In this document: positions 4,175-38,147 of the stretch, piece after piece
How the letters are laid out: every line of letters starts with the position of its first letter
Position numbering within the stretch: the first letter of the stretch is position 1
Origin: an uncultured Clostridia bacterium
GTDB taxonomy: Bacteria > Bacillota > Clostridia > Christensenellales > CAG-314
Direction of reading: 5' to 3'
Length of the DNA stretch: 60,496 bases
Assembly (NCBI GenBank): GCA_947629985.1
Contig: CANRFV010000009.1
Span: 1 to 60,496 of the forward strand
The notes under the pieces: model-generated
Seen by the model: only the letters and a program-made list of their open reading frames with translations
Database searches by the model: none
What the model was told of the DNA's origin: nothing
Made by a program: the position numbers and the translations under genes

Positions 4175-4193
4175 TACTATTTTACACATAGTA
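4175..4193 (+). repeat. Dyad TACTAT-N5-AC-ATAGTA, copy 1 (intergenic)
   Basis: A perfect six-base inverted repeat with a seven-base centre (TTTACAC). Identical geometry recurs at 8662, 22569 and 38063. The flanks (TGCACAA before, TATTTT after) match those of the 22569 copy. Confidence 0.7.
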
Positions 4194-4238
4194 TATTTTC
4201 ACGTGCATATTTTGTTTTGTTCACGGCAAACTAACAAT

Positions 4239-4754
4239 ATGATAGTTGCAACTGCAATGTTGGTGTTTTTGCTGCTTGTATTTGCGCCGATCCGCGTAAA
4301 ATTATACGTTTATCTGTATCCTGTCGACTTGCGCCTTACGGTAAAAGCCGACGTGTGCGCGGTAAAAGTATTTGACGAAAACATCGTGCTTAGCGGTAAA
4401 TATTTACACTGCAACGGCACGCTCGATTCCGACGTGGACATTACGGCTATCAACGGAAAGAACGGCGTTGATTTGTTCAAATGTATAACCGTAGACAGGG
4501 TTTTTGTATCAGTGCAAAACAATATGTTCAACGTACCGTTTTTTGTTGCGGTAATTACCAACGTAGTTATGGCATTATCCGCCGCCGTTATGTGCAACGC
4601 TACGCACTGCCAAGTGCAAACTCGGCAATCGTTATGCCAAGGCGCAAGCAAATTATTTGTCGGCGTGGCGCTAAGCGCCAACGTTGCGGAACTATCATTT
4701 TGTCTTGCAAAACAGGGAGTACAACAATGGAAAACACGCAAATCAAAGAAATAG
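4239..4754 (+). CDS. DUF2953 (YtfI-like) membrane-associated protein
   Basis: A 171-residue protein with one N-terminal membrane segment (MIVATAMLVFLLLVF) followed by a beta-rich region. Bacillus YtfI and clostridial DUF2953 proteins have this layout and lie directly upstream of ytfJ/gerW, as here; the assignment rests mainly on that position. The ATG at 4239 is preferred over an in-frame ATG at 4059, because the extra 60 residues look like translated spacer containing a dyad repeat. The end overlaps gerW by 28 bases, which suggests translational coupling. Function is unknown; a sporulation or envelope role is inferred. Confidence 0.65.
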   Translation: MIVATAMLVFLLLVFAPIRVKLYVYLYPVDLRLTVKADVCAVKVFDENIVLSGKYLHCNGTLDSDVDITAINGKNGVDLFKCITVDRVFVSVQNNMFNVPFFVAVITNVVMALSAAVMCNATHCQVQTRQSLCQGASKLFVGVALSANVAELSFCLAKQGVQQWKTRKSKK

Positions 4755-5101
4755 TGGAAACGGCCGTAAGCAATTTAAGTAAGGTTGCCGAAGTCAATAC
4801 GATAGTCGGTCAGCCGCTTGTTACCATGGACGGCACGACAATTTTGCCCGTGTCGCAAATCACGTTCGCATTTATGGCGGGCGGCGGCGAATACGGCAAC
4901 AAGTCGGGCAAGCGCGGTTTTGTCAAGGACAGCACCGACGCCAACTTTGCAGGCGGTTCGGGCGGCGGCGCTTCGCTTACGCCGGTATGTTTTTTGGTGG
5001 TGGATCGTAACGGCGTAAAGGTAGTGGAAGCGGACAAAACCAACACCGTCGAAAAAATTTTCGATGTTGCCAAGGACGTTGTACACTCCTTCAAAAATTA
5101 A
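4727..5101 (+). CDS. ytfJ: GerW/YtfJ family spore protein
   Basis: A 124-residue protein. It has an amphipathic N-terminal helix, the core LPVSQITFAFMAGGGEYG, and a Gly-rich FAGGSGGGASLTPVCFLVV segment typical of YtfJ/GerW, a spore protein needed for normal germination in Bacillus. The family usually occurs in endospore formers. The ATG at 4727 has AGGGAGT ten bases upstream. It follows DUF2953 with an overlap and precedes the carboxypeptidase gene by two bases, so the three genes probably form one operon. Confidence 0.88.
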   Translation: MENTQIKEIVETAVSNLSKVAEVNTIVGQPLVTMDGTTILPVSQITFAFMAGGGEYGNKSGKRGFVKDSTDANFAGGSGGGASLTPVCFLVVDRNGVKVVEADKTNTVEKIFDVAKDVVHSFKN

Positions 5102-5103
5102 AT

Positions 5104-6147
5104 ATGAAACGCAACATCGCAATACTTGTTTTGTTGAGCGCGCTGTTTGCCTGTGCGCTTGTATTTGCCGCGGGCAGCGCCGCCGATACTTGTTCGTTCG
5201 GCACGTCGGCACAAAGCGCGGTCGTAATGGAGCGCGTTTCGCACCGCGTTTTGTTCGAAAAAAACAGCGACGCGCCCTTGCCTATGGCGAGCACAACCAA
5301 GATAGTAACCGCGCTTACCGTGCTTAACAACTGCGACGTAAACGACGTTGTGGAAGTGCCTGCGCAAGCCGTGGGTGTGGAAGGTTCGTCCGTTTATTTG
5401 CGCAAGGGCGAGCATCTTACCGTAAGGGAATTGTTGTACGGCTTGATGTTGCGCAGCGGTAACGACTGTGCAGTTGCGCTTGCCATACACGTCGCCGGTT
5501 CGGTGGACGCTTTTGCCGCCAAAATGAACGATTTGGCAAAACAACTCGGCTGTTGCAACAGCAATTTTGTCAATCCGCACGGTTTGCCCGACGAACGCCA
5601 CTATACCACGGCGTACGATTTGGCGTTGATTACTTGCCACGCGCTGTGCAACGAACAATTCCGTCAAATCGTCGGCACCAAAACCGTCAAAATTTCCAAC
5701 GAAGGAATGGAGTACGACCGCCTTTTGGTAAACAAAAACAAATTGTTAAGCACTCTTGACGGCGCCGACGGGGTAAAAACGGGATATACCAAGCGTGCGG
5801 GGCGCTGTTTTGTCGGCAGTGCAACGCGCAACGGCATGCAAGTTGTGGCTGTTGTGTTAAATTGCGGTCCGATGTTTGAAGAGACGGCGCAACTGTTAAA
5901 TGCGGCTTTTGCAAATTACACACTTAAATGCATTATTCCGCAAAACAAAGTTTTCGGCTGCCGCACGGAAAGAGACGGCGCAACGTATTACGGGTGCGCA
6001 CAAGGTTTTTATTACCCGCTTGCGCCCGACGAAAAAGTTTCCGTATGCGTAAATTGGGCTGATGCGCCCGCGGTTTGCGTTCGCTTGGGCGAAACTTCGA
6101 TTTTCGAGCGCCCGTTGGACGTACTGCATACCGTGTCCGACCTGTAA
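5104..6147 (+). CDS. D-alanyl-D-alanine carboxypeptidase (PBP5/DacF type)
   Basis: A 347-residue exported penicillin-binding protein that trims the terminal D-Ala from peptidoglycan stem peptides. A signal peptide spans residues 1-23. The catalytic triad motifs are all present: S63-TTK-66 (SxxK), S118-G-N120 (SxN) and K225-T-G (KTG). A C-terminal beta domain follows, but I see no clear amphipathic membrane anchor at the end. It starts two bases after gerW with no separate ribosome site, implying coupling. Next to gerW, it may act in cortex or sporulation wall remodelling, as DacF and DacB do in Bacillus. Confidence 0.9.
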   Translation: MKRNIAILVLLSALFACALVFAAGSAADTCSFGTSAQSAVVMERVSHRVLFEKNSDAPLPMASTTKIVTALTVLNNCDVNDVVEVPAQAVGVEGSSVYLRKGEHLTVRELLYGLMLRSGNDCAVALAIHVAGSVDAFAAKMNDLAKQLGCCNSNFVNPHGLPDERHYTTAYDLALITCHALCNEQFRQIVGTKTVKISNEGMEYDRLLVNKNKLLSTLDGADGVKTGYTKRAGRCFVGSATRNGMQVVAVVLNCGPMFEETAQLLNAAFANYTLKCIIPQNKVFGCRTERDGATYYGCAQGFYYPLAPDEKVSVCVNWADAPAVCVRLGETSIFERPLDVLHTVSDL

Positions 6148-6293
6148 TTTTGTAGCAAAATCCCCCGTCCGCGTATCTCACGCGGGTTGCCTACTCGCAA
6201 CTTTGAACCTATGTGCTCAATATACTCGATATATGCCGCGCATACCGCGCCCGCCATGTAATTTCGTTGCAAGCGTATTTGTTTTCTGCTTTT

Positions 6294-6328
6294 ATTGCCA
6301 AACAACAATGTAAGTTTGGCAATTTTTT
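6294..6328 (+). terminator. Rho-independent terminator of the DUF2953-gerW-carboxypeptidase operon
   Basis: A perfect 10-bp stem, ATTGCCAAAC (6294-6303) with GTTTGGCAAT (6314-6323), runs into a T-run. It lies about 150 bases after the carboxypeptidase stop codon. Confidence 0.85.
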
Positions 6329-6780
6329 ATGCCTTGTTCAAGCGAAAATCGACGGTAGCATTATTTTCAATATTATAATGTGGGCAATTTATGCGTTACC
6401 AAAACGACAAACTTTTTTGCAAACTTGCCGCGAACCACCGTCCGTGTATCATTTCGCGTATCATTCACGTTACAATTTCGCAATGGCTGTTGCCGCACCT
6501 ACCCAAAAAAGCGCCGGCGCGGCGTTTTCGCACAAAATTTTCATATTTACGCGCCCGCTTTATGTTAAATTTCAAACACAAGCGCGCACAAAATAAGTAT
6601 TTGCAACAACAATTTGCGCGCAGTACGGTTTGCGCGCGACGTTTGACGGCGCAAATACTTGATTTTTTATAAAAAACAGTTTACTATATATTATAATAAT
6701 CAACAAAATACGCATTGCGCACCCGTTAGTGTGCGGTGCGTTGCCTGTTAATTGTCTCTAAACAAGGTGTGTATACAATA
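6329..6780. other. Non-coding spacer before rluB
   Basis: I see no credible gene. A TATAAT at 6692-6697 lies in an AT-rich patch but has no good -35; a weak alternative is TTGACG (6643-6648) with TTATAA near 6667. A GC palindrome (GCGCCGGCGC, about 6511-6520) is present. Transcription of rluB probably starts near 6700. Confidence 0.4.
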
Positions 6781-7482
6781 ATGATCAGACTAAACAAATT
6801 TTTGGCTGAGTGCGGCGTCGCAGGTCGTCGCGAATGCGACAAACTTATTGCGGACGGCTGCGTAACGGTCAACGGCAAAGTGGCGCAACTCGGTTGTTGC
6901 GTAAGCGAAACCGACAAAATCGCCGTCAACGGCAGGCGCATTTCCGACGTACAGCGCAAGTATTATTTGATGTTGCACAAACCGAAAGGTTACGTAACCA
7001 CAGTAAAGGACGATTTGGGGCGCAAAACGGTAATGGATCTGATCGACATAAAAGCCCGCCTGTATCCCGTGGGACGTTTGGATTACGACACCGAAGGGTT
7101 GCTTATATTGACAAACGACGGTCAGTTGGCAAACCGACTTACGCATCCGCGCAACGAAGTGGACAAAACATATATTTGCAGGTTGTCGGGCATTTTGACG
7201 GAATCGGAACGCCTGCAACTCGAACGCGGCGTAATTATCGACGGCGTAAAAACGGCGCACGCGCGCGTAAAAATTCTCAAACGCGATCAGCATCACACGC
7301 GTTGCGAAATTACCATTCACGAAGGGCGCAACCGACAGGTAAAAAAGATGTTTCAAACGGTCGGCAAAGAAGTGGAGTTTCTCAAACGCGTAGCGGTCGG
7401 CAATTTGCGTTTGGGCGGATTGCCGCGCGGCGAATACCGTTTTCTCAATGCCGAAGAAATAGATTATCTTAAAAATTTGTAA
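6781..7482 (+). CDS. rluB: RluB/RsuA-family pseudouridine synthase
   Basis: A 233-residue rRNA pseudouridine synthase. An S4 RNA-binding domain (RLNKFLAECGVAGRRECD, residues 3-20) precedes the RsuA/RluB/E/F catalytic domain, whose motif GRLDYDTEGL carries catalytic Asp101. The C-terminal part has the family's HEGRNRQVKKMF block. The ATG at 6781 has AAGGTG upstream; an earlier in-frame codon at 6736 would add 15 residues lying before the S4 start. SurE begins two bases downstream, so rluB opens the operon rluB-surE-BaiN-aroH. Confidence 0.93.
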   Translation: MIRLNKFLAECGVAGRRECDKLIADGCVTVNGKVAQLGCCVSETDKIAVNGRRISDVQRKYYLMLHKPKGYVTTVKDDLGRKTVMDLIDIKARLYPVGRLDYDTEGLLILTNDGQLANRLTHPRNEVDKTYICRLSGILTESERLQLERGVIIDGVKTAHARVKILKRDQHHTRCEITIHEGRNRQVKKMFQTVGKEVEFLKRVAVGNLRLGGLPRGEYRFLNAEEIDYLKNL

Positions 7483-7484
7483 TT

Positions 7485-8234
7485 ATGAACATTCTTTTGA
7501 CCAACGACGACGGAATATATTGCGCGGGACTGCAATTGTTGTGCAGTCAACTTGCCGCGCTCAAACACAACGTATATGTAGTTGCCCCCGAAAGTCAGCG
7601 TTCGGGCTTTTCGCATGCGGTGTTTTTCGGCAAAAATTCTCAATTGACTCCGTTAAAACATTATTGCGGCGCGCAAGCCGCCTACGCGTGTAACGGAACG
7701 CCCGCAGATTGCGTTCGCGCGGCAAAATTAACCTTTGACGTTTCGTTCGATTTGTTGATCGCCGGTCCCAACAACGGCGCCAATTTGGGCAGGGGTATAA
7801 TTTATTCGGGAACGATCGGTGCCGCGGAAGAAGGCGTGTTGTCAGGAATCAGATCGATTGCATTGTCGCGCTTGGGCAGAAACAAACCGTATTTTTCCGC
7901 AGTGGAGTTTGCCGTAAACAATCTCGACAAGTTGGCGGCGGCAAATCTCGGCGACGACTCGTATATCAACATAAACGTCCCCGATTGCAAATTATCGCAA
8001 ACTCTCGGCGTAAAAGTATGCGATCAGGGCATTTGCGGCGATTGCGGTTTGCGCGCAAACGACCGCGACGTACCAATCGTATGCGACAAGCGGTGCCCCG
8101 ATAGTGATTTGCCCGACGAAATGTCTCAATGCGACGTCGCCTGCGCCAAAGAAGATTATATAACCGTATCCGCGCTTACCGTACGGCGTACAGCCACAGA
8201 TCGACTCGCGGCGTTGCGGGGGTTGCTCAAATGA
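7485..8234 (+). CDS. surE: 5'/3'-nucleotidase SurE
   Basis: A 249-residue nucleoside monophosphate phosphatase. The metal site motif is at the N-terminus (LLTNDDGI, Asp8-Asp9), with the PESQRSGFSHA loop, a conserved Asn in GPNNGANLGRG, and the YSGTIGAAEEG motif. Length matches the family. It dephosphorylates nucleotides and possibly short polyphosphate in the cytoplasm. It starts two bases after rluB and overlaps the next gene by four bases (ATGA). Confidence 0.95.
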   Translation: MNILLTNDDGIYCAGLQLLCSQLAALKHNVYVVAPESQRSGFSHAVFFGKNSQLTPLKHYCGAQAAYACNGTPADCVRAAKLTFDVSFDLLIAGPNNGANLGRGIIYSGTIGAAEEGVLSGIRSIALSRLGRNKPYFSAVEFAVNNLDKLAAANLGDDSYININVPDCKLSQTLGVKVCDQGICGDCGLRANDRDVPIVCDKRCPDSDLPDEMSQCDVACAKEDYITVSALTVRRTATDRLAALRGLLK

Positions 8235-9457
8235 AAGTGGCGGTGATAGGCGGCGGTCCCGCAGGCATGATGGCGGCATTGACGGCTGCGCAACAGGGCG
8301 CGCAGGTAACTTTGTACGAAAAAAACGAAAAACTCGGCAAAAAACTGTATATCAGCGGCAAGGGGCGGTGCAATATAACCAACGATTGTTCCGCGCGCGA
8401 GTTCTTCGGTAATGTCGTAAGCAACCCAAAATTTCTTTTCGGCGCAATAAATCGCTTTTCGCCGCAGGATACGGTTGCTTTTTGTGAAAATAACGGACTC
8501 AAACTCAAAACCGAACGCGGCAACAGAGTGTTCCCGTTGTCGGACAAATCGTCCGATGTCATCAAGTTTTTTGCTCGACAATTGCTAAATAGCGGTGTAC
8601 AAGTACGACTTAATACCCAAATTGACGCCGTACTATGTCAGAAAAACGGCATTTCATTAACTACTATTTCAGACATAGTATTTTTTGACGCCGTAATAAT
8701 CGCCACAGGCGGATTGAGTTACAGCGCCACGGGCAGCACGGGCGACGGTTACAAATTTGCCCAAGTTTTGGGACATAAAGTGGTGCCGCTTTGCCCCGCG
8801 CTTTGCCGAATTTTGTGCAAAGGCGTAGAAGATCTGCAAGGTCTCTCGTTAAAAAACGTCGGTGTTTCGCTGTTAAATAAGGACGGCAACGTCGCGGCAA
8901 GCCAATTCGGCGAAATGTTGTTTACGGACGACGGCGTAAGCGGTCCCGCCGTACTCACTTTGTCGTCTTTTGTAAACCGCCGCGTCGCTTCGCTATCCGC
9001 AGTGGCAATAGACTTGAAACCCGCCTTGGACGACGACAAGTTAGACGCTCGAATTTTGCGTGATTTCGCTCAAAATTCCAACAAAAATTTCATCAATTCG
9101 CTTGACGCGCTGTTGCCCGAACGTCTTATAAAAACCGTCGCCGCGCAGTGCGGCATACCTTTTGACAAAAAAGTCAATCAAATTACCGCCGCCGAGCGCC
9201 GAAATCTGGTTTATGCAATCAAAAACTTGCAATTTCCCTTTGTCGCGTTGGATTCGGTCGAATACGGCATAGTAACCGCAGGCGGAATAGACGTAAAACA
9301 AATCAACCCCGCAACAATGGAAAGCAAATTGGCAAAGGGCGTGTATTTTGCCGGCGAAATATTGGACGTGGACGCGCTTACCGGCGGATTCAATATTCAG
9401 ATCGCGCTGTCTACGGGCTATATTGCGGGGCTGTCAGCATCACAAAACAAGGAGTAA
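8231..9457 (+). CDS. BaiN/HI0933-family FAD-dependent oxidoreductase
   Basis: A 408-residue flavoprotein with an N-terminal Rossmann motif (VIGGGPAGMMAAL), the family block KLYISGKGRCNITND at about residues 40-54, the central ATGGLSYSATGSTGDGYKFA block, and a C-terminal CDALTGGF-like element (DVDALTGGFNIQIALSTGY). The family is often annotated as aminoacetone oxidase or BaiN, but physiological substrates are mostly unknown. The ATG at 8231 overlaps the surE stop. An AT-rich patch inside (8631-8690) contains a copy of the dyad repeat without lengthening the protein noticeably. Confidence 0.88.
   Translation: MKVAVIGGGPAGMMAALTAAQQGAQVTLYEKNEKLGKKLYISGKGRCNITNDCSAREFFGNVVSNPKFLFGAINRFSPQDTVAFCENNGLKLKTERGNRVFPLSDKSSDVIKFFARQLLNSGVQVRLNTQIDAVLCQKNGISLTTISDIVFFDAVIIATGGLSYSATGSTGDGYKFAQVLGHKVVPLCPALCRILCKGVEDLQGLSLKNVGVSLLNKDGNVAASQFGEMLFTDDGVSGPAVLTLSSFVNRRVASLSAVAIDLKPALDDDKLDARILRDFAQNSNKNFINSLDALLPERLIKTVAAQCGIPFDKKVNQITAAERRNLVYAIKNLQFPFVALDSVEYGIVTAGGIDVKQINPATMESKLAKGVYFAGEILDVDALTGGFNIQIALSTGYIAGLSASQNKE
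8662..8680 (+). repeat. Dyad TACTAT-N5-AC-ATAGTA, copy 2 (inside a gene)
   Basis: TACTAT (8662-8667) and ATAGTA (8675-8680) flank TTCAGAC. A further arm, TACTATGTC (8631-8639), is a perfect 9-base complement of GACATAGTA (8672-8680), so two alternative foldings exist. It encodes TTISDIV in the flavoprotein, in a locally AT-rich patch. Confidence 0.7.
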
Positions 9458-9460
9458 ATT

Positions 9461-9820
9461 ATGGGAGCGATTCGCGGCGCAGTGTGCGCCGAAAATACCG
9501 TCGGCGATATATCCGACCAATCCGTAAGGCTTATTTCGGAAATCATACGCGCAAATGCCTTGCAAACCGAGCGTATCGAAGCCATCATCTTTACCGCAAC
9601 CAAGGATCTTACCGCTTGCTATCCCGCAACGGCGGTGCGCACTCGGCTCAATTTGCCCAATGCCGCCTTTATGTGTTGCGCCGAAATGGACGCGGACGGC
9701 GCAATGCCGCATTGCATACGCGTGTGCGTTGTTGTGTCTGGTCTGGCGCAAAGCGACTGCAAACATTGCTATCTCGGCAAGGCGCAGGCGTTGCGACCCG
9801 ATCTGTACAGCGATCGTTAA
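9461..9820 (+). CDS. aroH: Chorismate mutase, AroH class
   Basis: A 119-residue monofunctional chorismate mutase of the Bacillus AroH fold, converting chorismate to prephenate. The pattern matches well: RGA near the start (Arg5), TKDLTACYPATAVR, the EMDADGAMPHCIRV strand with its catalytic Arg, and YLGKAQALRPDL near the C-terminus. AAGGAG precedes the ATG. It is last in the rluB-surE-BaiN-aroH run. In many Clostridia cmk follows aroH; here it does not. Confidence 0.9.
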   Translation: MGAIRGAVCAENTVGDISDQSVRLISEIIRANALQTERIEAIIFTATKDLTACYPATAVRTRLNLPNAAFMCCAEMDADGAMPHCIRVCVVVSGLAQSDCKHCYLGKAQALRPDLYSDR

Positions 9821-10068: not shown

Positions 10069-10103
10069 ACTTGCATACAAATATCTATCGGGAGGGGAGC
10101 GGC

Positions 10104-10889: not shown

Positions 10890-12925
10890 AACTGTATTTA
10901 CCCAAGGAAACGGGTTTTTGCAACGGCGTATCCGCCGCGCTGAATAAGGCATATCAAACGGAAGGCGGCGCGTACTGTCTGGGGCAGATAGTGCACAACA
11001 AAAGCGTAACCGACGCTTTGCTCGCTCGCGGCATAGTAACCGTAGACGATATTTCTCGCGTGCCGGACGGCGCAACGCTCATTATTCGCGCGCACGGCGC
11101 ACCCAAGTCCGTATACGACGAAGCGGAAAGGCGCAAACTGAATATTGTGGACGCAACCTGTCCGTCGGTACGGGCAATTCAGCGCAAGGCGGCAAAATAT
11201 CACGCGGACGGTTACACGATAGTTTTGGTTGGGGACGCGTCTCACCCCGAAATAATCGGCATAAACGGCTGGTGCGACAATTCCGCGATAATTTTCGACG
11301 GGCGCTCCAAATTGAATTTGGAAAACGCCGAAAAAGTGCTTGTAATGTTTCAAACGACGTTTGATACGCGTTTTTTTGAAAAAAGTTTGCAAAATATTTC
11401 AACAGACCACGTCAAAACGCTTGAAATATTTAATTCAATTTGTTATACTACATTACAAAGGCAATATTATGCCCAAATGCTGTCTGCCAAATGCGATCTG
11501 GCGGTCGTGGTGGGCGACGCCGACAGTTCCAACACAAAAAGGCTGTTCGAAATTGCGTCGCAAAACTGCCGCACCGTATTAACCGACGGCAACGGGGCGG
11601 ATATTGATTTAAGTAATTGTAAAAATGCCTGTATAATTTCAGGCGCATCAACTCCGACGGAGTTGGTGAAGGGGGTTTTTAGAAGAATGGTTGAAAATGC
11701 AAAAGATACCGTAGTTGTTGAAACGGTAACGTCCGACGAATCGGTCGAGACTACTTCCGGTGAAGTTGCAAAGGAAGTCGAAGTTGCCAAGGAAAAGGTA
11801 ATGGACAAAAACGAAGCGTTGCTTGCCAAAGCGGTTTCGGAAATGAAAGAGGGGCACAGATACAAACTCGGACAAAAAGTAAAGTGCCGCGTTGTTCTCG
11901 TCAGCGATGACGGAGTGTATGTGCGTATTCCCAGTTCCAAAAAGGAAGCGTTTATTCCCAACGAAGAACTTTCCTTGGACGGCGACTATCAGGAAGTAAA
12001 AAAGGCTCTTGCAGCCGATTCGATGTTGGAATGTGCCGTAATTTCCGTGGACAAGGGCATTACCCTTTCCAAAAAGGTCATCGACGAGCGGTATAAGGAC
12101 GACGCATTGGTAGAAGGCATAAAGCAAGGCGAAGAATTTAAGGTTACAATGACCCGCGTCGGCAAGGAATGTCTTACGGGCAAATTGGGCAGTTACACGG
12201 TAGTTGTACACGCTTCGCAAATAAAGGCTACGGGCTATGTAAAAAATCTTACCGATTACGTAGGCAAAACGTTGCGCCTTGTGGTAAGCGGTCCGGACAA
12301 GATCGACGATCGCAAACGCGTTATATTCGCAAGTCAAAAGGCGGTTTTGCTCGCCGAAAAGAAAGCCAAGGAAGATGAATTTTGGAACAACATCGCCGAA
12401 AACGAAATTGTGGAAGGCAAGGTTCTCAGATTTGCGTCCTTCGGCGCCTTTGTAGACGTAAGAGGTTTCGATTGCTTGGCTCACACTTCGGATCTGTCTT
12501 GGGAACGCATATCCGGTCCCGCCGAAGTATTGGAGATCGGCAAGGTTTACGAATTTTTGGTACTTGCTCTGGACAGAGAAAAGAACAGAGTTTCGTTGGG
12601 ATACAGACAACTTCAACCCAAACCTTGGGATGTTGCCGCGCAAAAGTTCCCCGTCGGTTCGGTTGTAAAGGGCAAAGTTGCACGCATTATGCCGTTTGGC
12701 GCATTTATCGAATTGGACAAGCACATCGACGGTTTGCTGCACGTATCCAACGTTTCGTGGGAGTGGCTTGACGACATCAACAAGGCGTTGAAAGTAGGCG
12801 ACGAAATCGAAGTTCAAATAATGGAATTCGACGCCGAAAACAAACGTATCACATTGTCGCGCAAGGCGGTTTTGCCCAAACCCGAAGAAGCGGCGCCTGC
12901 CGAAAGCGGCGACAACGCCGAATAA
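10886..12925 (+). CDS. ispH: Fused IspH reductase and S1-domain protein
   Basis: A 679-residue fusion. Residues 1-270 are 4-hydroxy-3-methylbut-2-enyl diphosphate reductase, the last step of the MEP isoprenoid pathway. The [4Fe-4S] ligands are Cys12, Cys92 and Cys186, and the substrate histidines His37, His70 and His120. After an acidic linker (about 280-310) come four S1 RNA-binding repeats; the first two are divergent, the last two classical (FGAFVDVRGFDCLAHTSDLSW and FGAFIELDKHIDGLLHVSNV). The same fusion is known from Clostridia. The S1 half may act as the ribosomal protein S1 homologue. It overlaps plsC by ATGA. Confidence 0.94.
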   Translation: MKLYLPKETGFCNGVSAALNKAYQTEGGAYCLGQIVHNKSVTDALLARGIVTVDDISRVPDGATLIIRAHGAPKSVYDEAERRKLNIVDATCPSVRAIQRKAAKYHADGYTIVLVGDASHPEIIGINGWCDNSAIIFDGRSKLNLENAEKVLVMFQTTFDTRFFEKSLQNISTDHVKTLEIFNSICYTTLQRQYYAQMLSAKCDLAVVVGDADSSNTKRLFEIASQNCRTVLTDGNGADIDLSNCKNACIISGASTPTELVKGVFRRMVENAKDTVVVETVTSDESVETTSGEVAKEVEVAKEKVMDKNEALLAKAVSEMKEGHRYKLGQKVKCRVVLVSDDGVYVRIPSSKKEAFIPNEELSLDGDYQEVKKALAADSMLECAVISVDKGITLSKKVIDERYKDDALVEGIKQGEEFKVTMTRVGKECLTGKLGSYTVVVHASQIKATGYVKNLTDYVGKTLRLVVSGPDKIDDRKRVIFASQKAVLLAEKKAKEDEFWNNIAENEIVEGKVLRFASFGAFVDVRGFDCLAHTSDLSWERISGPAEVLEIGKVYEFLVLALDREKNRVSLGYRQLQPKPWDVAAQKFPVGSVVKGKVARIMPFGAFIELDKHIDGLLHVSNVSWEWLDDINKALKVGDEIEVQIMEFDAENKRITLSRKAVLPKPEEAAPAESGDNAE

Positions 12926-13417: not shown

Positions 13418-15541
13418 ATGGAAAAATTCAGAAAAAGCGAACACACAATAGGCAACCGCGTCTACCATGTGTTCGAGACCGAAATCGGCGGCAGAACCGT
13501 AAAGGTCGAAGTTGGTAAATATGCCGAGCAAGCAAACGGCTCTTGCAGAGTTTCTTGCGGCGAAACGGTTGTTATGACAAACGTTACATTGGCTGCAAAA
13601 CCGCGCGACGGGATAGATTTCTTCCCTTTGGGCGTGGATTTTGAAGAAAAAATGTATTCCGTCGGCAAAATCCCCGGCGGCTTTAAGAAAAGAGAAGGCA
13701 GAGCAAGCGACAAGGCAATATTGACGTCGCGTTTGATCGACCGCCCGATACGTCCGTTGTTTCCCAAGGGATTTTTAAACGACGTATCCGTAATTGCAAC
13801 GGCAATGTCGGTCGAGCCGGACATTCAACCCGAAGTTTACGCAATGATGGGCAGTTCGATCGCATTGTCCATATCCGATATTCCCTTTGCGGGTCCCACG
13901 GGTAGTGTAGTTGTGGGGTATGTGGACGGCAAATACATCATCAACCCCAATGCCGAACAGCGCGAGCGCAGTTTGCTCAACCTCAATTTGGCAGGCACGA
14001 AAGACGCCATAATGATGGTGGAAGCGGGCGCAAACGAAATTTCCGAAAAAGAAATGCTGGACGCAATTCTGTTCGGACACGAAGCGATCAAAGAACAGTG
14101 CGATTTTATCGAATTTATACGCGCCGAAGTGGGCAAGCCCAAGGCGGACATAGAATTGCATTTGCCCCCTGCGGAACACGAAGCGCTCATTCGTCCTTAT
14201 GCCGACGAAATGCTTACCCAAGCGCTCAAAACATTCGACAGGGCCGAACGTCAAGCCAATCAGGACGCCGTCGAAAAGGCGGTGCGCGAGCATTTTGCCG
14301 AAACCAATCCCGAAGTTTTGGATTCCGTAGGCGACGTGCTGTACAAAATGACCAAAGAAAAGGTGCGCGCGCGTATTCTCAACGAAGGTATCCGTCCCGA
14401 CGGCAGAGGCCTTACAGACATTCGTCCCATTTGGTGCGAAGTCGGTATTTTGCCCAGAGTACACGGCAGCGGAGTATTTACGCGCGGTATGACGCAGGTT
14501 ATTACAACCGCAACGTTGGGCACAATTTCCGAAGTGCAAAAGTTGGAAAACCTTGACGACAGCGAAACTTTCAAACGTTATATGCATCATTACAATATGC
14601 CCGGATACTCTACAGGCGAAGCCAAGCCTTTGCGTAGCCCCGGCAGACGCGAGATAGGTCATGGTGCGTTGGCGGAACGCGCGTTGGAGCCCGTAATTCC
14701 TTCGGAAGAAGAATTTCCGTACGCAATACGTACCGTTTCGGAAGTGGTAAGCAGTAACGGCAGCACTTCGCAGGCAAGCGTATGCGGTTCAACGTTGGCA
14801 TTGATGGACGCAGGCGTACCCATCAAAGCGCCCGTTGCGGGTATTGCAATGGGCTTGATGAAGTCCGAAGACGGTTCCAAAGTTGCCATTTTGTCCGATA
14901 TACAGGGCTTGGAAGACTTTTTGGGCGATATGGACTTCAAAGTTGCTGGTACAGCCAAAGGTATCACGGCGATCCAGATGGACATCAAAATAAAGGGTAT
15001 CGACGAAAATATTTTGCGCACTGCGTTGGAACAAGCGCGTCAGGGCAGACTGTTTATTTTGGACAAGATGCTTCAAGTTTTGCCCGAACCGCGCAAGGAA
15101 ATTTCCAAGTACGCGCCCAAGATCATATCCTTCACGATCGATCCCGACAAGATTCGCGAAGTTATCGGCAGCGGCGGCAAGACTATCAACAAGATAATCG
15201 ACGAAACCGGCGTAAAGATAGACATAACCGACGACGGCACGGTATTTATCGCCACACCCGATCAGGAAATGTCCGACAAGGCAAAGCAAATGATCTTGGC
15301 TATTGCCAAAGATCCCGAAGTGGGCGACGAATTTACGGGTAAAGTTGTAAGAATACTCGATTTCGGCGCATTTGTGGAACTCGCTCCCGGCAAAGACGGT
15401 ATGATCCACATTTCCAAACTTGCCAAAGAGCGCGTAGACAAGGTTACCGACGTAGTAAACATCGACGATACGGTTACCGTCAAGGTTATTAAAGTAGACG
15501 ACAAGGGCAGGATCGATCTCAAACTTATCAAAAAACTGTAA
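13418..15541 (+). CDS. pnp: Polynucleotide phosphorylase
   Basis: A 707-residue 3'-5' exoribonuclease that phosphorolyses RNA, normally a trimer in the degradosome. Two RNase PH domains (about 15-230 and 320-550) are separated by a helical segment. The second carries the active-site blocks SGVFTRGMTQV and DIQGLEDFLGDMDFKVAGT. A KH domain (GSGGKTINKIIDETG, about 585-640) and a C-terminal S1 domain (about 645-707) follow. Length is typical. AAGGAGATAGG precedes the ATG. A terminator separates it from the next gene. Confidence 0.97.
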   Translation: MEKFRKSEHTIGNRVYHVFETEIGGRTVKVEVGKYAEQANGSCRVSCGETVVMTNVTLAAKPRDGIDFFPLGVDFEEKMYSVGKIPGGFKKREGRASDKAILTSRLIDRPIRPLFPKGFLNDVSVIATAMSVEPDIQPEVYAMMGSSIALSISDIPFAGPTGSVVVGYVDGKYIINPNAEQRERSLLNLNLAGTKDAIMMVEAGANEISEKEMLDAILFGHEAIKEQCDFIEFIRAEVGKPKADIELHLPPAEHEALIRPYADEMLTQALKTFDRAERQANQDAVEKAVREHFAETNPEVLDSVGDVLYKMTKEKVRARILNEGIRPDGRGLTDIRPIWCEVGILPRVHGSGVFTRGMTQVITTATLGTISEVQKLENLDDSETFKRYMHHYNMPGYSTGEAKPLRSPGRREIGHGALAERALEPVIPSEEEFPYAIRTVSEVVSSNGSTSQASVCGSTLALMDAGVPIKAPVAGIAMGLMKSEDGSKVAILSDIQGLEDFLGDMDFKVAGTAKGITAIQMDIKIKGIDENILRTALEQARQGRLFILDKMLQVLPEPRKEISKYAPKIISFTIDPDKIREVIGSGGKTINKIIDETGVKIDITDDGTVFIATPDQEMSDKAKQMILAIAKDPEVGDEFTGKVVRILDFGAFVELAPGKDGMIHISKLAKERVDKVTDVVNIDDTVTVKVIKVDDKGRIDLKLIKKL

Positions 15542-15696: not shown

Positions 15697-16434
15697 ATGG
15701 AAAGACGCGTATTTACGCACATTGTCGCCAATGTTATACTTGTAATATTGATCGCCGCCGTGGCTACGGTGGGGTTTGTGGGCACAACCGCCAATGTTTT
15801 TAACAATACCGACAATGCACCGATATACAGGGGCAGCGGTGTAAAGCAGGTTTCCCTTATGATCAACGTGTATTGGGGAACGGAATATTTGGACGGAATG
15901 TTGGCAATATTAGCAAAGTACGGCGTACATACGACCTTTTTCGTCGGCGGTTCGTGGGTGGCGCAATATCCGCAAATGTTGCAGCAAATAGTCGCTTGCG
16001 GGCACGAAGTGGGCAACCACGGATACTCTCACAAACAGCACAGTACGCTAAGTTACGACGAAAACGTGCGCGAAATAGAAGCGTGCGGCAAAATGGTTTT
16101 TGAATATACGGGGTATATTATGCACTTGTTCGCTCCTCCGGGCGGCGATTTCGGCACCGACGCGCTAAACGCGGCAAGCGACTGCGGATACAAAACGATA
16201 ATGTGGTCGCGCGATACCATCGATTGGCGAGACAAGGACGCGCAAAAAGTATTCAGCCGCGCGACAAAATCCACGTCGGACGGCGAGTTGATATTGTTAC
16301 ATCCCACTCAGCACACGCTGAGCGTATTCGACAAAATAATCCGATACTACTCGGACAACGGGTACGAAATAGTGCCCGTAAGCACAAATATAGGTGAATT
16401 ATGCAATTCTTCAAGCGGTACCCAAGCGGATTGA
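15697..16434 (+). CDS. YlxY-like polysaccharide deacetylase-fold protein, probable catalytic Asp replaced
   Basis: A 245-residue protein with an N-terminal membrane anchor (about residues 8-28) and a NodB fold outside the membrane. The metal-site His motif GNHGYSH, the APPGG loop, W-rich MWSRDTIDW and LLHP are present. Motif 1, normally (T/A)FD(D/x), reads MINVYWG, so Asn57 stands where the Asp should be. The ATG at 15697 is preferred over 15685 because GGAG (15687-15690) lies between them. In Bacillus, rpsO-pnpA is followed by ylxY and an M16 peptidase gene, exactly as here. The Asn may be normal for this subgroup or mark a non-enzymatic protein. Confidence 0.82.
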   Translation: MERRVFTHIVANVILVILIAAVATVGFVGTTANVFNNTDNAPIYRGSGVKQVSLMINVYWGTEYLDGMLAILAKYGVHTTFFVGGSWVAQYPQMLQQIVACGHEVGNHGYSHKQHSTLSYDENVREIEACGKMVFEYTGYIMHLFAPPGGDFGTDALNAASDCGYKTIMWSRDTIDWRDKDAQKVFSRATKSTSDGELILLHPTQHTLSVFDKIIRYYSDNGYEIVPVSTNIGELCNSSSGTQAD

Positions 16435-17657
16435 GACTTGTGGCGGAACAAATAGATCATTACCACACAGTGTCGTTGGGCGTTTTCGTAGACGTGGGGT
16501 GCGTGCGCGAAACAACCCAAACAAACGGTTACGCGCACTTTATAGAACATTTGGTTTTCAAGGGAACGCAGCGCCGCACGTGCCTGCAAATTTCCGAAGA
16601 AATAGACGATCTGGGCGCAAATATCAACGCCTATACAGCCAAGGACGCCACTTGCTTTTACACAAAAAGTTCGTCTGACGATCTGGCTGTGTGTATGGAC
16701 ATTTTGTCGGATATGTATTTCAACGCCACAATTCCGCAGGATGAATTGGAACGCGAAAAGGGAGTGGTAATAGAAGAAATAAAGATGTGCGAGGACACTC
16801 CCGACGACGTTTGTCAGGATTTGTCGTCTGCGGCGCTGTTTTACAAGCAAAAAATGGGACAAACTATTCTCGGAAATGCCGAAAACATAAAATACTCTGA
16901 CAGACATAGTTTGCTCGATTTCAAAAAATGCTTTTATATTCCCACATCGACCGTAGTTGCCGTTTGCGGCAATTTCGATTGGGCGCAACTAACCGACTTG
17001 GTGCAGCAATATTTCGAAGATCATTGCGAGCAAACGTCTTGCAAGTTGCCCGACGAACCCGCGGTAAATTACGGATCCGAATTTTTGTATTCGTTCAAGC
17101 CGATAGAGCAATCGCACATACAGTTGGCATGGGGCGGGTGCGCACTCGGTTCGTCCGACAGATTTGCTTTAAGTATGTTGGCTTCTATTTTGGGCGGCGG
17201 ATTGTCCAGCCGACTCAATCAGGAAATACGCGAAAAAAACGGATTGGCATACAGCGTTTACGCCTATCCGTCGTACTATTCTAATTGCGGCGCTTTTGAA
17301 ATTTACGCGGGGCTCAGTCCCGACAATTGCGCACGCGTGTGCGATTTGATCGAAGGTGAAATAAACAAGTTGCTAAGCGACGGCATTACCGAACGCGAAT
17401 TGTTGCGTGCGCGCACTCAGGCGGTAAACGCATTGTATATGAATTCGGAAAGTAATATGACATTGATGCGCCTGTACGGCAGATCTATGCTCAAACTTAA
17501 CGAAGTGTTTGTTTTGCAGGACGACATTGCGGCATACAACGCGGTAACGGCACAGCAGATCGATCTGCTTGCGCGCAAATTATTTGCCCAAAAACACGCG
17601 TCGGCGTACGTCGGTCCGCAGGTAAAAGGCTACGATTTGGTAACTAAAATTCACTGA
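16401..17657 (+). CDS. M16-family zinc metallopeptidase (MlpA/YmxG-like)
   Basis: A 418-residue processing-peptidase-like protein. The inverted zinc motif HFIEH (near residue 49) and the downstream Glu region EKGVVIEEIKMCED are intact in the N-terminal half; a typical non-catalytic C-terminal half follows (GGGLSSRLNQEIREKNGLAYSVYAYPS). No signal peptide is seen, so it is probably cytosolic. AGGTGA precedes the ATG, which lies 34 bases inside the deacetylase gene. Position matches mlpA of Bacillus, next to ylxY. Substrate unknown. Confidence 0.9.
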   Translation: MQFFKRYPSGLRLVAEQIDHYHTVSLGVFVDVGCVRETTQTNGYAHFIEHLVFKGTQRRTCLQISEEIDDLGANINAYTAKDATCFYTKSSSDDLAVCMDILSDMYFNATIPQDELEREKGVVIEEIKMCEDTPDDVCQDLSSAALFYKQKMGQTILGNAENIKYSDRHSLLDFKKCFYIPTSTVVAVCGNFDWAQLTDLVQQYFEDHCEQTSCKLPDEPAVNYGSEFLYSFKPIEQSHIQLAWGGCALGSSDRFALSMLASILGGGLSSRLNQEIREKNGLAYSVYAYPSYYSNCGAFEIYAGLSPDNCARVCDLIEGEINKLLSDGITERELLRARTQAVNALYMNSESNMTLMRLYGRSMLKLNEVFVLQDDIAAYNAVTAQQIDLLARKLFAQKHASAYVGPQVKGYDLVTKIH

Positions 17658-22566: not shown

Positions 22567-22589
22567 AATACTATGCAACACATAGTATT
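22567..22589 (+). repeat. Dyad TACTAT-N5-AC-ATAGTA, copy 3 (22569-22587), extended hairpin
   Basis: Here the dyad extends to a perfect 9-bp stem, AATACTATG/CATAGTATT, with loop CAACA and TATTTT after it. It may double as the hemW terminator. It also lies about 140 bases upstream of the LysR start. Confidence 0.7.
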
Positions 22590-27159: not shown

Positions 27160-27179
27160 TAGTTTTTCTTTAATATGTG

Positions 27180-27188
27180 TGTTATAAT
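27180..27188 (+). promoter_or_regulatory. Extended -10 promoter before the KdpD-like kinase
   Basis: TGTTATAAT (27180-27188) is a perfect extended -10 box without a good -35. It would give the two-component genes their own transcription start inside the operon, with a leader of about 12 bases. Confidence 0.5.
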
Positions 27189-27206
27189 AAAGCACGGGAG
27201 GGCTTT

Positions 27207-30577: not shown

Positions 30578-30592
30578 GTTGCCAGGTAGATT

Positions 30593-31775: not shown

Positions 31776-31794
31776 ACGCTTTTCAAATTTTTGA

Positions 31795-32209: not shown

Positions 32210-32215
32210 AATATC

Positions 32216-33583: not shown

Positions 33584-33652
33584 TTATTGCATTGTCTCCG
33601 CACCTGTCGCACAGGTAAAATATTTCTAAAATCAAAGCAAAAGGGAGCGTTT

Positions 33653-34384: not shown

Positions 34385-36135
34385 AAAAATATTTCGCTTT
34401 GGTCAAACTGTTTTTTACGCAACAATACAAGATGCGTAGCACCGTCGGCAGTAAAGACAAAAAACATATCGGCTGGATATTTACCGTAGTAGTGATTATA
34501 CTGGGTCTTTTGCCCTTTGCAATAAGCGTTGCCGTGGCAATGTTCTATATGGGGCAAATATCCCAAGGAAACGAGTACGTTAATGCCTTTTTGATACTTA
34601 TGTGCCAAGGGTTGGTACTTATGTTCGGCGTTCACGCAATAATTTCCAACGTGTTTATTGTGGGCGACGCCGAAAGGTTGGCTTACTTGCCCGTGCGCTC
34701 GTTGACGGTATTTTTGGCTAAGTTTACCGTAACGTACCTTAACGAAGTAATTACAACTGCGGTTACGTTATGTGTTATTGTGTTACCGTTCGGAATAGGC
34801 GCAGGCGCGTCGGCGGCGTTTTACTGTACATTGCCGTTTGCGTTGCTTTTAATTCCCGTATTGCCGCTGTTTGTCGGCACGGTCGTTGCTATGCCGTTAT
34901 CGGCTTTAATGGCTGCCGTGGGCAAGAACGGCACGTTAAAAACCGTTGTTCGCGTGCTTATGTACCTTACGGTAATGGCGCTGTATATGTACGTAATGTA
35001 CAACTTCGGCTTTTTCTCGGGCTCGGAAAATAATATTTTGGACAACCCGCAAGAATATATCGCGGAAATGATCGACGGCTTTATCAACCGCTTGCAAGGC
35101 ATTGTGGTGTACGCCCATTCCGACTATATGCTTTCGTGCGCTATGCTGTCGGGATCGTTTGGCGACCGGATAGGCAGCATTGCGGCAAGTATAGGCGAAA
35201 ACCTGCTGATGTTGGCAATAGTGATGGTTATGGCGTTGCCGTTTTACAACACAATTGTGCGTCAATCGTTGGAAAGCGGCGGTATTGCGCGCCGCAAAAG
35301 TAAAAACGCCGTTGCAAACTCTCAATCTCTTAAATTGCGCAACAAAGGTTCGCTGTTGCAGTTGATAATTACAGATTTCAAGCGAACGGTACGCGACGGG
35401 CAGTTGGGCTTTCAATCTTTTGCGGGGTTGGTAATGCTTCCCGTAACGATAGTTATATTCTATTTTATGTTGGGGCAGGCAAGCGACGGCGACGCTTCGT
35501 TTTTGGAAGTAATGTCCATTTCACCTATGTACCAGATAATTGCGCCATTGGTGGTGTTGGGATATACGGGAATGCTAAGCGTTATTACAAACGTATGGGG
35601 ACTGTATCCCATTACGCGCGAAAACACGTCGTTTTATTTACTGAAAAGTTTACCGATCTCGTTTAACAAAATTTTGTTGGCAAAAGTAATATTGGCAACT
35701 GCGGTAATGTCTGTTTGCGATTTTATTACGTGCCTGCTCATCGTGCTTTTGTTGGGGATAAAATGGTATTACGGCATAGCGATATTCGTTACAATGGCGC
35801 TTATCGGATTCGGCGCTATGTGTATAACGACGTTGCTCGATCTCAAATCGCCCAAATTTCGCTGGGCAAATTTCAATCAGGGGCTTAACAATGCCAAAAA
35901 CCATTGGTATGCTATATTGATAAGTATGCTGCTGGATCTGGCAATTGCATTGGCTTCTACGCCGTTTTTGATTTGGTGCTATGCAACGAGCAACGCTCAG
36001 GACGTTGCGCCGATGTGGTATATACCGTTTTTGATGTGGCTGTTGCTGTTGGTAATTTCGTTTGCGTTTGCGATGGTGGCGTACAAAGTAATGGCACGCA
36101 AGGCAAGCGGATACTTTAACAGGATAGAAACGTAA
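34381..36135 (+). CDS. ABC transporter permease (large, multi-pass)
   Basis: A 584-residue integral membrane protein with roughly twelve hydrophobic segments, in two clusters separated by a cytosolic basic loop (ARRKSKNAVANSQSLKLRNK, near residue 300). It has the look of the putative ABC exporter permeases of Firmicutes, which pair with one ATPase gene as here. No peptidase or other domain is seen. Which molecule it exports cannot be read from context. Confidence 0.85.
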   Translation: MKKYFALVKLFFTQQYKMRSTVGSKDKKHIGWIFTVVVIILGLLPFAISVAVAMFYMGQISQGNEYVNAFLILMCQGLVLMFGVHAIISNVFIVGDAERLAYLPVRSLTVFLAKFTVTYLNEVITTAVTLCVIVLPFGIGAGASAAFYCTLPFALLLIPVLPLFVGTVVAMPLSALMAAVGKNGTLKTVVRVLMYLTVMALYMYVMYNFGFFSGSENNILDNPQEYIAEMIDGFINRLQGIVVYAHSDYMLSCAMLSGSFGDRIGSIAASIGENLLMLAIVMVMALPFYNTIVRQSLESGGIARRKSKNAVANSQSLKLRNKGSLLQLIITDFKRTVRDGQLGFQSFAGLVMLPVTIVIFYFMLGQASDGDASFLEVMSISPMYQIIAPLVVLGYTGMLSVITNVWGLYPITRENTSFYLLKSLPISFNKILLAKVILATAVMSVCDFITCLLIVLLLGIKWYYGIAIFVTMALIGFGAMCITTLLDLKSPKFRWANFNQGLNNAKNHWYAILISMLLDLAIALASTPFLIWCYATSNAQDVAPMWYIPFLMWLLLLVISFAFAMVAYKVMARKASGYFNRIET

Positions 36136-36273
36136 TTTTATTGCGGCATCGATAACGCGTTCTGTAATCAAGCGCGCTTGTCGCAATACTAACGGCATAG
36201 TTTTCTGCAGTGCGCGCGGGCGCGTTCATCGACGTAAAATCGAACAAAAAGAAAGTAAAACAGGAGAAAATAT

Positions 36274-37473
36274 ATGAAGAATGTACTTGACACATTGAGA
36301 GAGCGCGGATATCTTAAACAAGCGGTTTTCGAGGACGAATTGTACGAATTGTTGGGCAAAGAAAAGGTGGTGTTTTACAACGGTTACGACCCAACTGCGG
36401 ACAGTTTGACTGCGGGGCACTTTGTTACGCTTATGGCTATGGCTCATTTTCAGCGTGCCGGACACACGCCCATTATTTTGATTGGCGGCGGCACGGCTAT
36501 GGTGGGCGATCCCAGCGGACGTACGGATATGCGTACAATGATGAGCAAGGAGACGATAAATCACAACGTAGAGTGTTTCAAAAAGCAAATGGCGCGGTTT
36601 ATCGACGTTGACAAGGCAATATTCGTAAACAACGCCGATTGGCTGTGGAATCTTAATTATATCGATTTCCTGCGCGAAATAGGCACGTGTTTTTCGGTAA
36701 ATCAAATGCTTACCGCCGAATGTTTCAAGCAACGGTTGGAAAGGGGTTTGAGTTTTCTCGAATTTAACTATATGCTTATGCAAGGATACGACTTTTTGGT
36801 GCTTAACCGCAAATATAACTGCATATTGCAAACGGGCGGCGACGACCAATGGAGCAATATGCTTGCGGGAGCCGACCTTATACGTCGCAAGGAAGGCAAA
36901 AAGGCTTACGCGCTTACGTATACGCTGCTTACAACTTCTGACGGCAAAAAGATGGGCAAGACGGCAAAAGGCGCGATATGGTTGGACGCCGCCAAAACAA
37001 GCCCGTTCGACTTTTTCCAATATTGGCGCAACATCGAAGACGACCGCGTAGAGACTTGTCTCAAACTGCTTACTTTTTTGGATCTGGACGAAATCGCCCG
37101 TCTTACGGAATACAAGGACGAACGAATAAACGCCGCCAAAGAGCGCTTGGCATACGAAGTAACGGCGATCGTACACGGCAAGGAAGTGGCGGACGAAGTG
37201 CTGAAACAAGTTCACGCGTCATTTTCGCAAGACGTAGACAATATGCCTACGGTTGAAATATGCCAACCCACAAATATAATCGATATACTTGTAAAATGCG
37301 GTCAATGCAAGTCTAACGGCGAAGCGCGCAGACTTGTGGACGGCGGCGGCGTATCTGTAAACGATTGCAAAATAACTTCCGCCGCATGGACGTTGCCCGA
37401 CCAAGTAATTGCCGACGGCGAATTTGTGTTGCACAAGGGCAAAAAAGTTCACTTGCGCGTAAAAATCGTTTGA
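36274..37473 (+). CDS. tyrS: Tyrosyl-tRNA synthetase
   Basis: A 399-residue class I synthetase charging tRNA-Tyr. It has YNGYDPTADSLTAGHF (HIGH region), GGGTAMVGDPSGR, the Tyr-binding QTGGDDQWSN, the KMSKS equivalent GKKMGKT, and a C-terminal S4 domain (GEARRLVDGGGVSVND). This resembles the TyrZ-type branch. AGGAGA precedes the ATG. The 138-base upstream spacer is too short for a T-box and shows no T-box sequence. Confidence 0.95.
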   Translation: MKNVLDTLRERGYLKQAVFEDELYELLGKEKVVFYNGYDPTADSLTAGHFVTLMAMAHFQRAGHTPIILIGGGTAMVGDPSGRTDMRTMMSKETINHNVECFKKQMARFIDVDKAIFVNNADWLWNLNYIDFLREIGTCFSVNQMLTAECFKQRLERGLSFLEFNYMLMQGYDFLVLNRKYNCILQTGGDDQWSNMLAGADLIRRKEGKKAYALTYTLLTTSDGKKMGKTAKGAIWLDAAKTSPFDFFQYWRNIEDDRVETCLKLLTFLDLDEIARLTEYKDERINAAKERLAYEVTAIVHGKEVADEVLKQVHASFSQDVDNMPTVEICQPTNIIDILVKCGQCKSNGEARRLVDGGGVSVNDCKITSAAWTLPDQVIADGEFVLHKGKKVHLRVKIV

Positions 37474-37529
37474 AATATTGTCGCGCGCGGCAGGTCAGTC
37501 AAGCAAACGCAGCGCCACGGGAGTAACCT

Positions 37530-38147
37530 ATGAAAGAATACGTAACCGTCGGCACGGAACCGATCGTTGTCGAAACAGTTATAGACAAATCTCGTTTTAT
37601 CGCTTATGCCATACGCGTAGACAGCGTGGAGCAGGCAACGGAATGCATTGCGGAAATCAAAAAACGCTATTTTGACGCAACGCACAATTGTTACGCCTAC
37701 ATCGTGGGCGATCGCGCCAAATTCAGCGACGACGGTGAGCCGCAGGGCACGGCAGGTATGCCCATATACGAATGTATAAAGAACAACTCGCTCGATCACG
37801 TTTGCGTTGTTGTAACGCGATATTTCGGCGGCATAAAACTCGGTGCGGGCGGATTGGTTCGCGCGTACGGCGGCAGTTGTGCAAGTGCGCTTAACGCATG
37901 CAAAAAAGTGCAAATGACCGATTGCACGTTGTTGCAAATTACCGTAGAATACAGTCTGTTGCAGCCCATTCGCAAGGCTTTGCAGTCTTATGCGCATGAA
38001 AAATCGGTATTTTACGGCGATAAAGTAGTGTTACTATTCTTGTTTCCGACGGTATTATATAATACTATTATAGACATAGTAACCGAAAGCACGTTGGGAC
38101 AGGCGTTATTCGAAGTTAAAAACAGACAGTTGTGCGAATTTGAGTAA
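37530..38147 (+). CDS. yigZ: YigZ/IMPACT-family protein
   Basis: A 205-residue member of UPF0029. The N-terminal Impact domain has the pattern KSRFIAYAIRV, ATHNCYAYIVG, SDDGEPQGTAGMP and VVTRYFGGIKLGAGGLVRAYG; a DUF1949 C-terminal domain follows. The biochemical role in bacteria is unclear; eukaryotic IMPACT regulates Gcn2. GGGAG precedes the ATG. A copy of the dyad repeat lies in the C-terminal part. Confidence 0.93.
   Translation: MKEYVTVGTEPIVVETVIDKSRFIAYAIRVDSVEQATECIAEIKKRYFDATHNCYAYIVGDRAKFSDDGEPQGTAGMPIYECIKNNSLDHVCVVVTRYFGGIKLGAGGLVRAYGGSCASALNACKKVQMTDCTLLQITVEYSLLQPIRKALQSYAHEKSVFYGDKVVLLFLFPTVLYNTIIDIVTESTLGQALFEVKNRQLCEFE
38063..38081 (+). repeat. Dyad TACTAT-N5-AC-ATAGTA, copy 4 (inside yigZ)
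   Basis: TACTAT (38063-38068), TATAGAC and ATAGTA (38076-38081). It encodes TIIDIV, close to the TISDIV encoded by copy 2, because the motif sits in the same reading phase in both genes. Confidence 0.7.

Follow-up and report, generated by a model that had tools for sequence, protein, structure and literature searches.

The DNA analysed here (the window: 60,496 nucleotides of contig CANRFV010000009.1 from an uncultured Clostridia bacterium of the order Christensenellales, assembly GCA_947629985.1) carries four exact copies of a 19-bp dyad, TACTAT-N7-ATAGTA, at positions 4175..4193, 8662..8680, 22569..22587 and 38063..38081. All four lie on the + strand and have the bases AC before ATAGTA; both these features and the positions had been given in the initial annotation and were verified. 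Judged from genome sequences, the bacterium belongs to a group of uncultured gut Clostridia in which up to about twenty such sites surround the putative replication terminus and nearly all point toward it. The dyad also recurs in the promoter region of a gene that we call padR-TM, whose product (PadR-TM) belongs to the PadR family and is apparently anchored in the membrane.

The first copy in the window (TACTATTTTACACATAGTA) matches the pattern exactly, scores 31.8 with a position weight matrix (PWM) whose training set includes it, and reads 5′ to 3′ toward the terminus both by GC skew and by synteny. The longest form of an open reading frame (ORF), 4059-4754, encloses this copy; an in-frame ATG at 4239, together with a shorter orthologue in the related genome G018 that starts 45 bp past its own site, suggests that it is intergenic. 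The copies at 8662 and 38063, also exact, lie in a BaiN/HI0933-like gene (8129-9457) and in a yigZ-like (UPF0029) gene (37530-38147), respectively. The exact copy at 22569 is intergenic, with a LysR gene downstream, and has a less typical core (TACTATGCAACACATAGTA) that passes a PWM threshold of 16 and fails one of 18. The initial division into two genic and two intergenic copies is thus correct, with 4175 being only probably intergenic. The near copy reported at 16893..16911 (+ strand) is present as well, as a degenerate version with two mismatches and a PWM score below 16 in the gene 16401-17657. In the related genome G020, the corresponding gene offset (492, 498) holds TACTCT and GACAGACATAG, with most letters kept; G017 has only TACTCT and no counterpart was found in G018.

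Occurrence and conservation of the dyad

When every dyad of 6-bp arms separated by 7 bp is counted, the one with TACTAT arms comes first in the window, with four copies against at most one for any other arm, and also in 400 kb of G020 (eight copies; two for the runner-up). When up to two mismatches are allowed, the window contains six matches, versus a mean of 1.03 and a maximum of 4 among 100 shuffles; the sixth match, at 27171-27189, is probably due to chance.

The whole genome from which the window comes (G000; 2.37 Mb, 157 contigs) contains 21 exact sites, and the reversed control pattern has none. The sites are located on contigs C1 (nine), C13 (five), C9, which holds the window (four), C6 (two) and C8 (one), and the contig carrying dnaA, C2, has none. 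Exact sites are present in 25/25 genomes of the genus, with 2-23 per genome; the control gave no match in 22 of these genomes and one match in three. Other families of the order were represented by 16 genomes, of which 11 have no site and five have 1-4; the reversed control gave 0-2 matches there, about the same level. One further exact site of G020 is on contig C23, which is unplaced relative to the dif-like site described below, as are C6 and C8 of G000. The G000 assembly, with its 157 contigs, is larger than the 1.2-1.7 Mb found in the genus and may include foreign contigs.

Sites are frequently retained at the same places in relatives. Genes near a site had a site-near orthologue in 96 of 199 comparisons, versus 103 of 1284 for genes without a site (each pair is counted in both directions, and neighbouring genes may share one site). 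The site at 8662 is homologous to sites in G020, G018 and G017, and the one at 38063 to sites in G020 and G017. In the BaiN-like gene, codons for the same residue are identical in 32/32 pairs within the site versus 784/1673 in the remaining gene, and in yigZ the corresponding figures are 15/15 versus 180/386 (codon pairs being non-independent). This codon identity indicates that the sites in both genes are conserved at the DNA level beyond the needs of the protein, a kind of conservation that the initial annotation had named for checking.

Orientation of the sites around a dif-like palindrome

In G020, a palindrome, TTCGCAAAA-N6-TTTTGCGAA, is located at position 203,171 of contig C1, where cumulative GC skew reaches its maximum (about 200-210 kb), and dnaA, at 832 kb, is 629 kb away. 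The palindrome is part of an 11-6-11 layout like that of an Xer dif site (TATTCGCAAAA-N6-TTTTGCGAATA; L030:3169-3196, equivalent to about 203.17 kb of G020 C1). It was spotted in the gap before an Xer gene and then sought in the relatives. Its inner 24 bp occur without mismatch and in single copy in 21 of the 24 genomes searched and with one mismatch in G022; none was found in G019, and G042 gave just a 2-mismatch match elsewhere. The reversed control with up to two mismatches gave no match in 18 of these 24 genomes and 1-4 in six. The palindrome is also present in G029 (C1:264607), and a version whose outer bases differ slightly is found in G026 (C2:64309). A tyrosine recombinase gene closest to XerS lies 0.3 kb from the site in G020 and 0.3-2 kb from it in 4/4 genomes tested. 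XerS is the best model for this recombinase, with 184.3 bits against an NCBIfam cut-off of 267, which falls short of an XerS/difSL assignment. We infer that the palindrome is the dif site of these genomes (dif hereafter), unlike canonical dif in sequence. When G020 was scored with a matrix of four known dif sites, no convincing match appeared around the skew switch: one of the 24 matches listed lies there (207,208), with the lowest score, 11.6.

The sites show a strong strand bias relative to this terminus. When the five padR operators are left aside, 45 of 48 strict sites on 14 contigs point toward dif, and 48 of 53 do so when they are included (for the genus the strict pattern was TACTATNNNANNCATAGTA, and other genera were scanned with a looser form; coordinates transferred by hand; orthologous sites are non-independent). 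One site with a core of the small-PadR type (G003 C8:88687) is excluded from the 48 and kept in the 53, and eight further dif contigs carry no such site. On 32 contigs lacking dif, 39/42 neighbouring site pairs are co-oriented, or 41/50, counted by hand, when three contigs of mixed orientation (G042 C1, G046 C8 and G048 C29) are added, of which G042 was covered by the dif search. In G020, G018, G017 and contig C1 of G000, the flip in orientation and the switch in GC skew are no more than about 10 kb apart. On G000 C1 the flip is bracketed by a + site at 8,495, dif at 11,448 and a - site at 14,054; the strict sites of this 330-kb contig end at 189 kb. In the 400 kb of G020, all 14 sites scoring at least 18 with the PWM are + up to 203 kb and - beyond it. 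At this threshold, the sites pointing toward dif are 14/14 in G020, 13/16 in G018, 9/12 in G017 and 10/13 on G000 C1, with only G018 and G017 held out from the G000, G020 and other sites on which the PWM was trained. The initial annotation had proposed a role in chromosome organisation for these dispersed polar motifs and had named counts near chance, absence of strand bias and loss in close relatives as refuting it; the high counts over the control, the strand bias and the frequent persistence in relatives all turned out in its favour.

The window has two counterparts in G020, one at about 16-29 kb and the other at about 56-100 kb from dif; their order is swapped and both are oriented toward dif. 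At about 16.4-19 kb of the window, gene order jumps relative to G020, G018 and G017, the distance to dif changing from some 16-22 kb to some 100-122 kb, which corresponds to a rearrangement or an assembly join.

The polarity of the sites is not a by-product of gene direction, since those in ORFs opposing the fork still point toward dif (4/4), as do 16/20 in ORFs running with the fork and 26/31 intergenic sites (ORFs were called by a simple longest-ORF rule). Among 65 sites on contigs that are 85-91% coding, 33 are intergenic and 32 lie in ORFs. The intergenic sites do not form a promoter set, because their distances to start codons scatter from 9 to 998 bp and 5/33 lie between convergent genes. 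The earlier view that the dyad is no ordinary promoter operator agrees with this scatter and with the half of the sites found in ORFs.

Read toward dif, the motif is TACTAT-TTYASRC-ATAGTA or, with a wider second position of the core, T-W-Y-A-S-R-C between the arms. The flank on the origin side is better conserved than that on the dif side, with 7.1 versus 2.8 bits for intergenic sites and 4.8 versus 2.4 bits for genic ones (the aligned rows include orthologous sites). This holds in three of four genomes, the two flanks being equal in G017 (3.6 and 3.5). No clear second dyad adjoining the site was seen in the conservation of these flanks, computed on the same rows.

The padR-TM gene and its product

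PadR-TM is composed of a PadR winged helix, a linker of about 200-240 residues and four hydrophobic C-terminal helices. By domain content it is a member of the PadR family, the G020 protein scoring 70.9 bits with the Pfam PadR model (PF03551; cut-off 27). In the predicted structure, the linker has low confidence and the C-terminus forms a helical bundle, with block pLDDT values mostly of 80-95, whose hydrophobic sequence is apparently that of four membrane helices. The fold matches include PadR/LmrR proteins; the matched chains of PadR proteins and of the PadR-like pNOB8 centromere-binding protein (4rs8) are short (84-178 residues) and end before the linker or membrane part. The C-terminal domain has no match in the PDB at an E-value of 0.001 or better. 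A sequence search with this domain detected one of 245 genomes of the class, the window's own, and no other family member among the matches listed.

The padR-TM gene was found in 24/25 genomes of the genus, and at least eight of the 12 genomes examined from the family's other genera have it too; G019 gave only small PadR matches. The gene shares a contig with dif in 19/24 genomes, at less than 7 kb in 18 of these 19 (33 kb in G010), and is transcribed away from dif in 19/19. The two are on separate contigs in G000, G002 and G023.

With up to two arm mismatches, the dyad is present 76-89 bp upstream of 26 of the 28 padR-TM genes with a recognised start, a set that excludes L079, cut by a contig end, and L083, whose start was unrecognised; 14 of the dyads have perfect arms, and the genes of L073 and L074 have no upstream dyad. 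It also occurs with one arm mismatch before L083 and the genes of G047 and G042, all from the family, and of G054, from another family; the promoter dyad recurs in other genera of the family. The direction of the operator core relative to the gene is mostly constant (L069 and L072 are ambiguous). The presence of the site in its own promoter suggests that padR-TM is probably autoregulated. The LysR-type site offered initially as an alternative found no support here: a LysR gene does follow the copy at 22569, but the dyad precedes 26/28 of these PadR-family genes, and the distance from intergenic sites to start codons is not constant.

Of the named records that encode the PadR-TM family, most bear the title uncultured Clostridia or Clostridiales, with gut samples as the source of several (rabbit, from ‘Lapin’, goat, sheep, roe deer and chicken), and other titles are Candidatus Fimimonas, Limihabitans and Heteroclostridium. 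Two records encoding padR-TM (L116 and L120; JAMPAB010000050.1 and JAMPEJ010000001.1) are titled Corallococcus sp.; their relatives are metagenome-assembled genomes of Clostridia and the title is probably misleading. In the open-access literature, we found no report of a PadR membrane protein at the terminus.

The same arms, with the core ACATTGC, ACATTAC or ACAATGC, are located 24-199 bp from the matched stretch of a small PadR gene in seven genomes, which independently marks them as a PadR-type operator. The dyad TACTATACATTGCATAGTA or a near variant lies by this gene at G020 C1:945838 and at similar places in six other genomes, and is probably a separate operator of the small PadR gene.

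Outside the family, the padR-TM homologue of G029 lies 0.6 kb from a palindrome with dif-like arms. A different dyad, TTTTACATC-N5-GATGTAAAA, is present just before its start (L138 about 1182-1206; C1:265181-265205), with no clear relatives within the 100 kb scanned. No site-like matches were found around the padR-TM homologues in the G026 and G029 stretches and one weak match in that of G038, a stretch in which no dif-like site was found either. The terminus array is therefore shown here for a single family (f1) only.

Possible functions and comparison with known systems

We propose, at roughly even odds (about 0.5), that the motif is the site of a membrane-tethered, one-way terminus system with PadR-TM as its reader, most likely acting as a fork barrier. 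PadR-TM would bind the motif and so mark the replication terminus, with about a dozen or more sites within about 170 kb of dif oriented toward it, the direction in which each arm would be replicated. On a near-palindromic and asymmetric site, a PadR-TM dimer would let the fork of its own arm through and hinder a fork that has overrun the terminus, in the manner of RTP-Ter or Tus-Ter. The asymmetric core and the better-conserved origin-side flank could give the dimer this one-way action, and the putative membrane part may keep the terminus attached to the envelope, close to FtsK and the Xer system. Polarity would be relevant only to a machine that moves along DNA, either a fork or a translocase. 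A fork barrier with membrane attachment is ranked first because of the Tus/RTP-like layout and of the likeness of PadR-s2 to RTP, guidance of FtsK and a plain tether coming next. With somewhat less confidence, one may see here a third, independently evolved terminus system, in which a former gene regulator, combining a PadR winged helix with a membrane domain, became a one-way gate beside dif that couples fork arrest (or the direction of FtsK) to attachment at the envelope.

Several observations weigh against a fork barrier read by PadR-TM. Wrong-way sites amount to 3/48 with the strict pattern and 9/55 at a PWM score of 18 or more, and the three mixed contigs mentioned above come from other genera. 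G019 has sites, yet neither padR-TM nor dif was found there, perhaps owing to an assembly gap. The gene is 33 kb from dif in G010 and 55 kb in G026, from another family. In G000 it is located on C13, with dif on C1, and the strict sites on both sides of it are +, so that it is not at the orientation flip. The second, small PadR protein could also read the sites and, with half of them (33/65) intergenic, some could also act on transcription. A search for the RTP family (PF02334) yielded a protein over the Pfam cut-off in 0/25 genus genomes (best E-value 0.0236), the B. subtilis control being over it. To our knowledge, Tus and RTP have no membrane domain. Finally, the polarity could serve translocation by FtsK and not forks.

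This last point leads to an explanation in which the sites steer or load FtsK, like the FtsK-orienting polar sequences (KOPS), the SpoIIIE recognition sequences (SRS) or the architecture-imparting sequences (AIMS), and a PadR-TM at the septal membrane marks the direction of dif, toward which DNA is pumped for Xer recombination, with forks uninvolved. The flip of polarity at the dif-like site itself, the XerS-closest recombinase gene 0.3-2 kb away in 4/4 genomes and an ftsK gene about 13 kb from dif in G020 speak for it, as does the description of KOPS as pointing toward dif at about one per 13 kb (PMC5357621). We nevertheless regard it as unlikely: KOPS are 8-bp motifs read by FtsK gamma, whereas the sites described here are dyads of 19 bp also found repeatedly ahead of a PadR gene, and other strongly skewed 7- and 8-mers near dif in G020 are candidates for the true KOPS (a skewed-octamer scan for separate KOPS gave candidates and no clear winner). 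Similarly doubtful is a MatP-like role, in which PadR-TM condenses the terminus or anchors it at the divisome or membrane, and polarity merely results from binding being asymmetric, without any barrier. The apparent four-helix membrane domain and the clustering of sites round the terminus would suit such a role, but a pure tether needs no polarity, yet this is kept in 45/48 sites and in the 4/4 sites located in fork-opposed ORFs.

Much less probable is an ordinary PadR regulon, the sites being operators of scattered target genes. A dyad in the padR-TM promoter region and 33/65 intergenic sites on such densely coding contigs are what one would expect of it, but the scatter of start-codon distances, the sites between convergent genes, the 32/65 sites in ORFs and an orientation that tracks the replication arm are not. 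It is extremely improbable that the neighbouring LysR regulator reads the sites or that they are due to chance: one copy lies upstream of the LysR gene, but 21 sites were found versus 0 for the control and the sites follow padR-TM and dif (no site-by-site search for further LysR neighbours was made).

Within the open-access literature, a terminus system of this kind appears unreported. If the fork-barrier reading is true, it would be a third fork-trap origin, with an RTP-like fold but membrane-anchored, and so a natural and independent test of what such traps are for. The function of the fork trap has been termed enigmatic (PMC4999828). The sites would also be useful as terminus marks when orienting genomes of uncultured Clostridia.

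Among the precedents named initially, KOPS, and likewise Ter, fit the polarity better than Noc, SlmA and MatS, whose sites are symmetric. Noc, SlmA and parS sites are concentrated at the origin or elsewhere outside the terminus; those described here cluster round dif, with none on the dnaA contig of G000. The sites resemble MatP-matS in their location at the terminus. They differ from matS, which is a symmetric, non-polar palindrome, by an asymmetric core, an orientation toward dif and a putative reader with its own apparent membrane helices. A membrane link has been reported for MatP (PMC6538776). With KOPS, SRS and AIMS they share the direction toward dif, which KOPS are described to have on the leading strand (PMC5357621); they differ from these 8-bp motifs read by FtsK gamma as 19-bp dyads shared with the padR-TM promoter region. 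Unlike PadR-TM, the matched chains of PadR/LmrR regulators and of the 4rs8 protein stop short of a linker or membrane domain, and we know of no polar terminus array for them.

According to a recent review, chromosomal fork traps have two unrelated origins, Tus and RTP, and both tus and rtp are autoregulated by a ter site (PMC10331603). The topology and dimer organisation of PadR-s2 have been described as similar to those of RTP from B. subtilis (PMC3506622). The system of the window shares with RTP-Ter the winged-helix dimer fold, as in PadR, the putative autoregulation through a promoter site and the polar terminus sites. It appears to differ by a single 19-bp dyad, with no clear A+B pair of dimer sites, and by an apparent membrane domain on a long linker; fork arrest would be a putative function here. 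Judged by the PF02334 search, PadR-TM is not an RTP-family member; RTP is not among the fold matches listed, which has no bearing on membership. Enterobacterial Tus-Ter also has polar sites flanking the terminus and a gene tied to a site, with Tus described as a polar monomer (PMC10331603), whereas here the likely reader has a PadR winged helix and its putative target is a dyad. The layout of a fork trap, with sites on each arm facing those on the other, a flip at the terminus, a gene that usually lies there and a site in this gene's promoter region, is found in these Clostridia, and in such features, read from sequence, the system appears Ter-like, with fork arrest as its possible activity.

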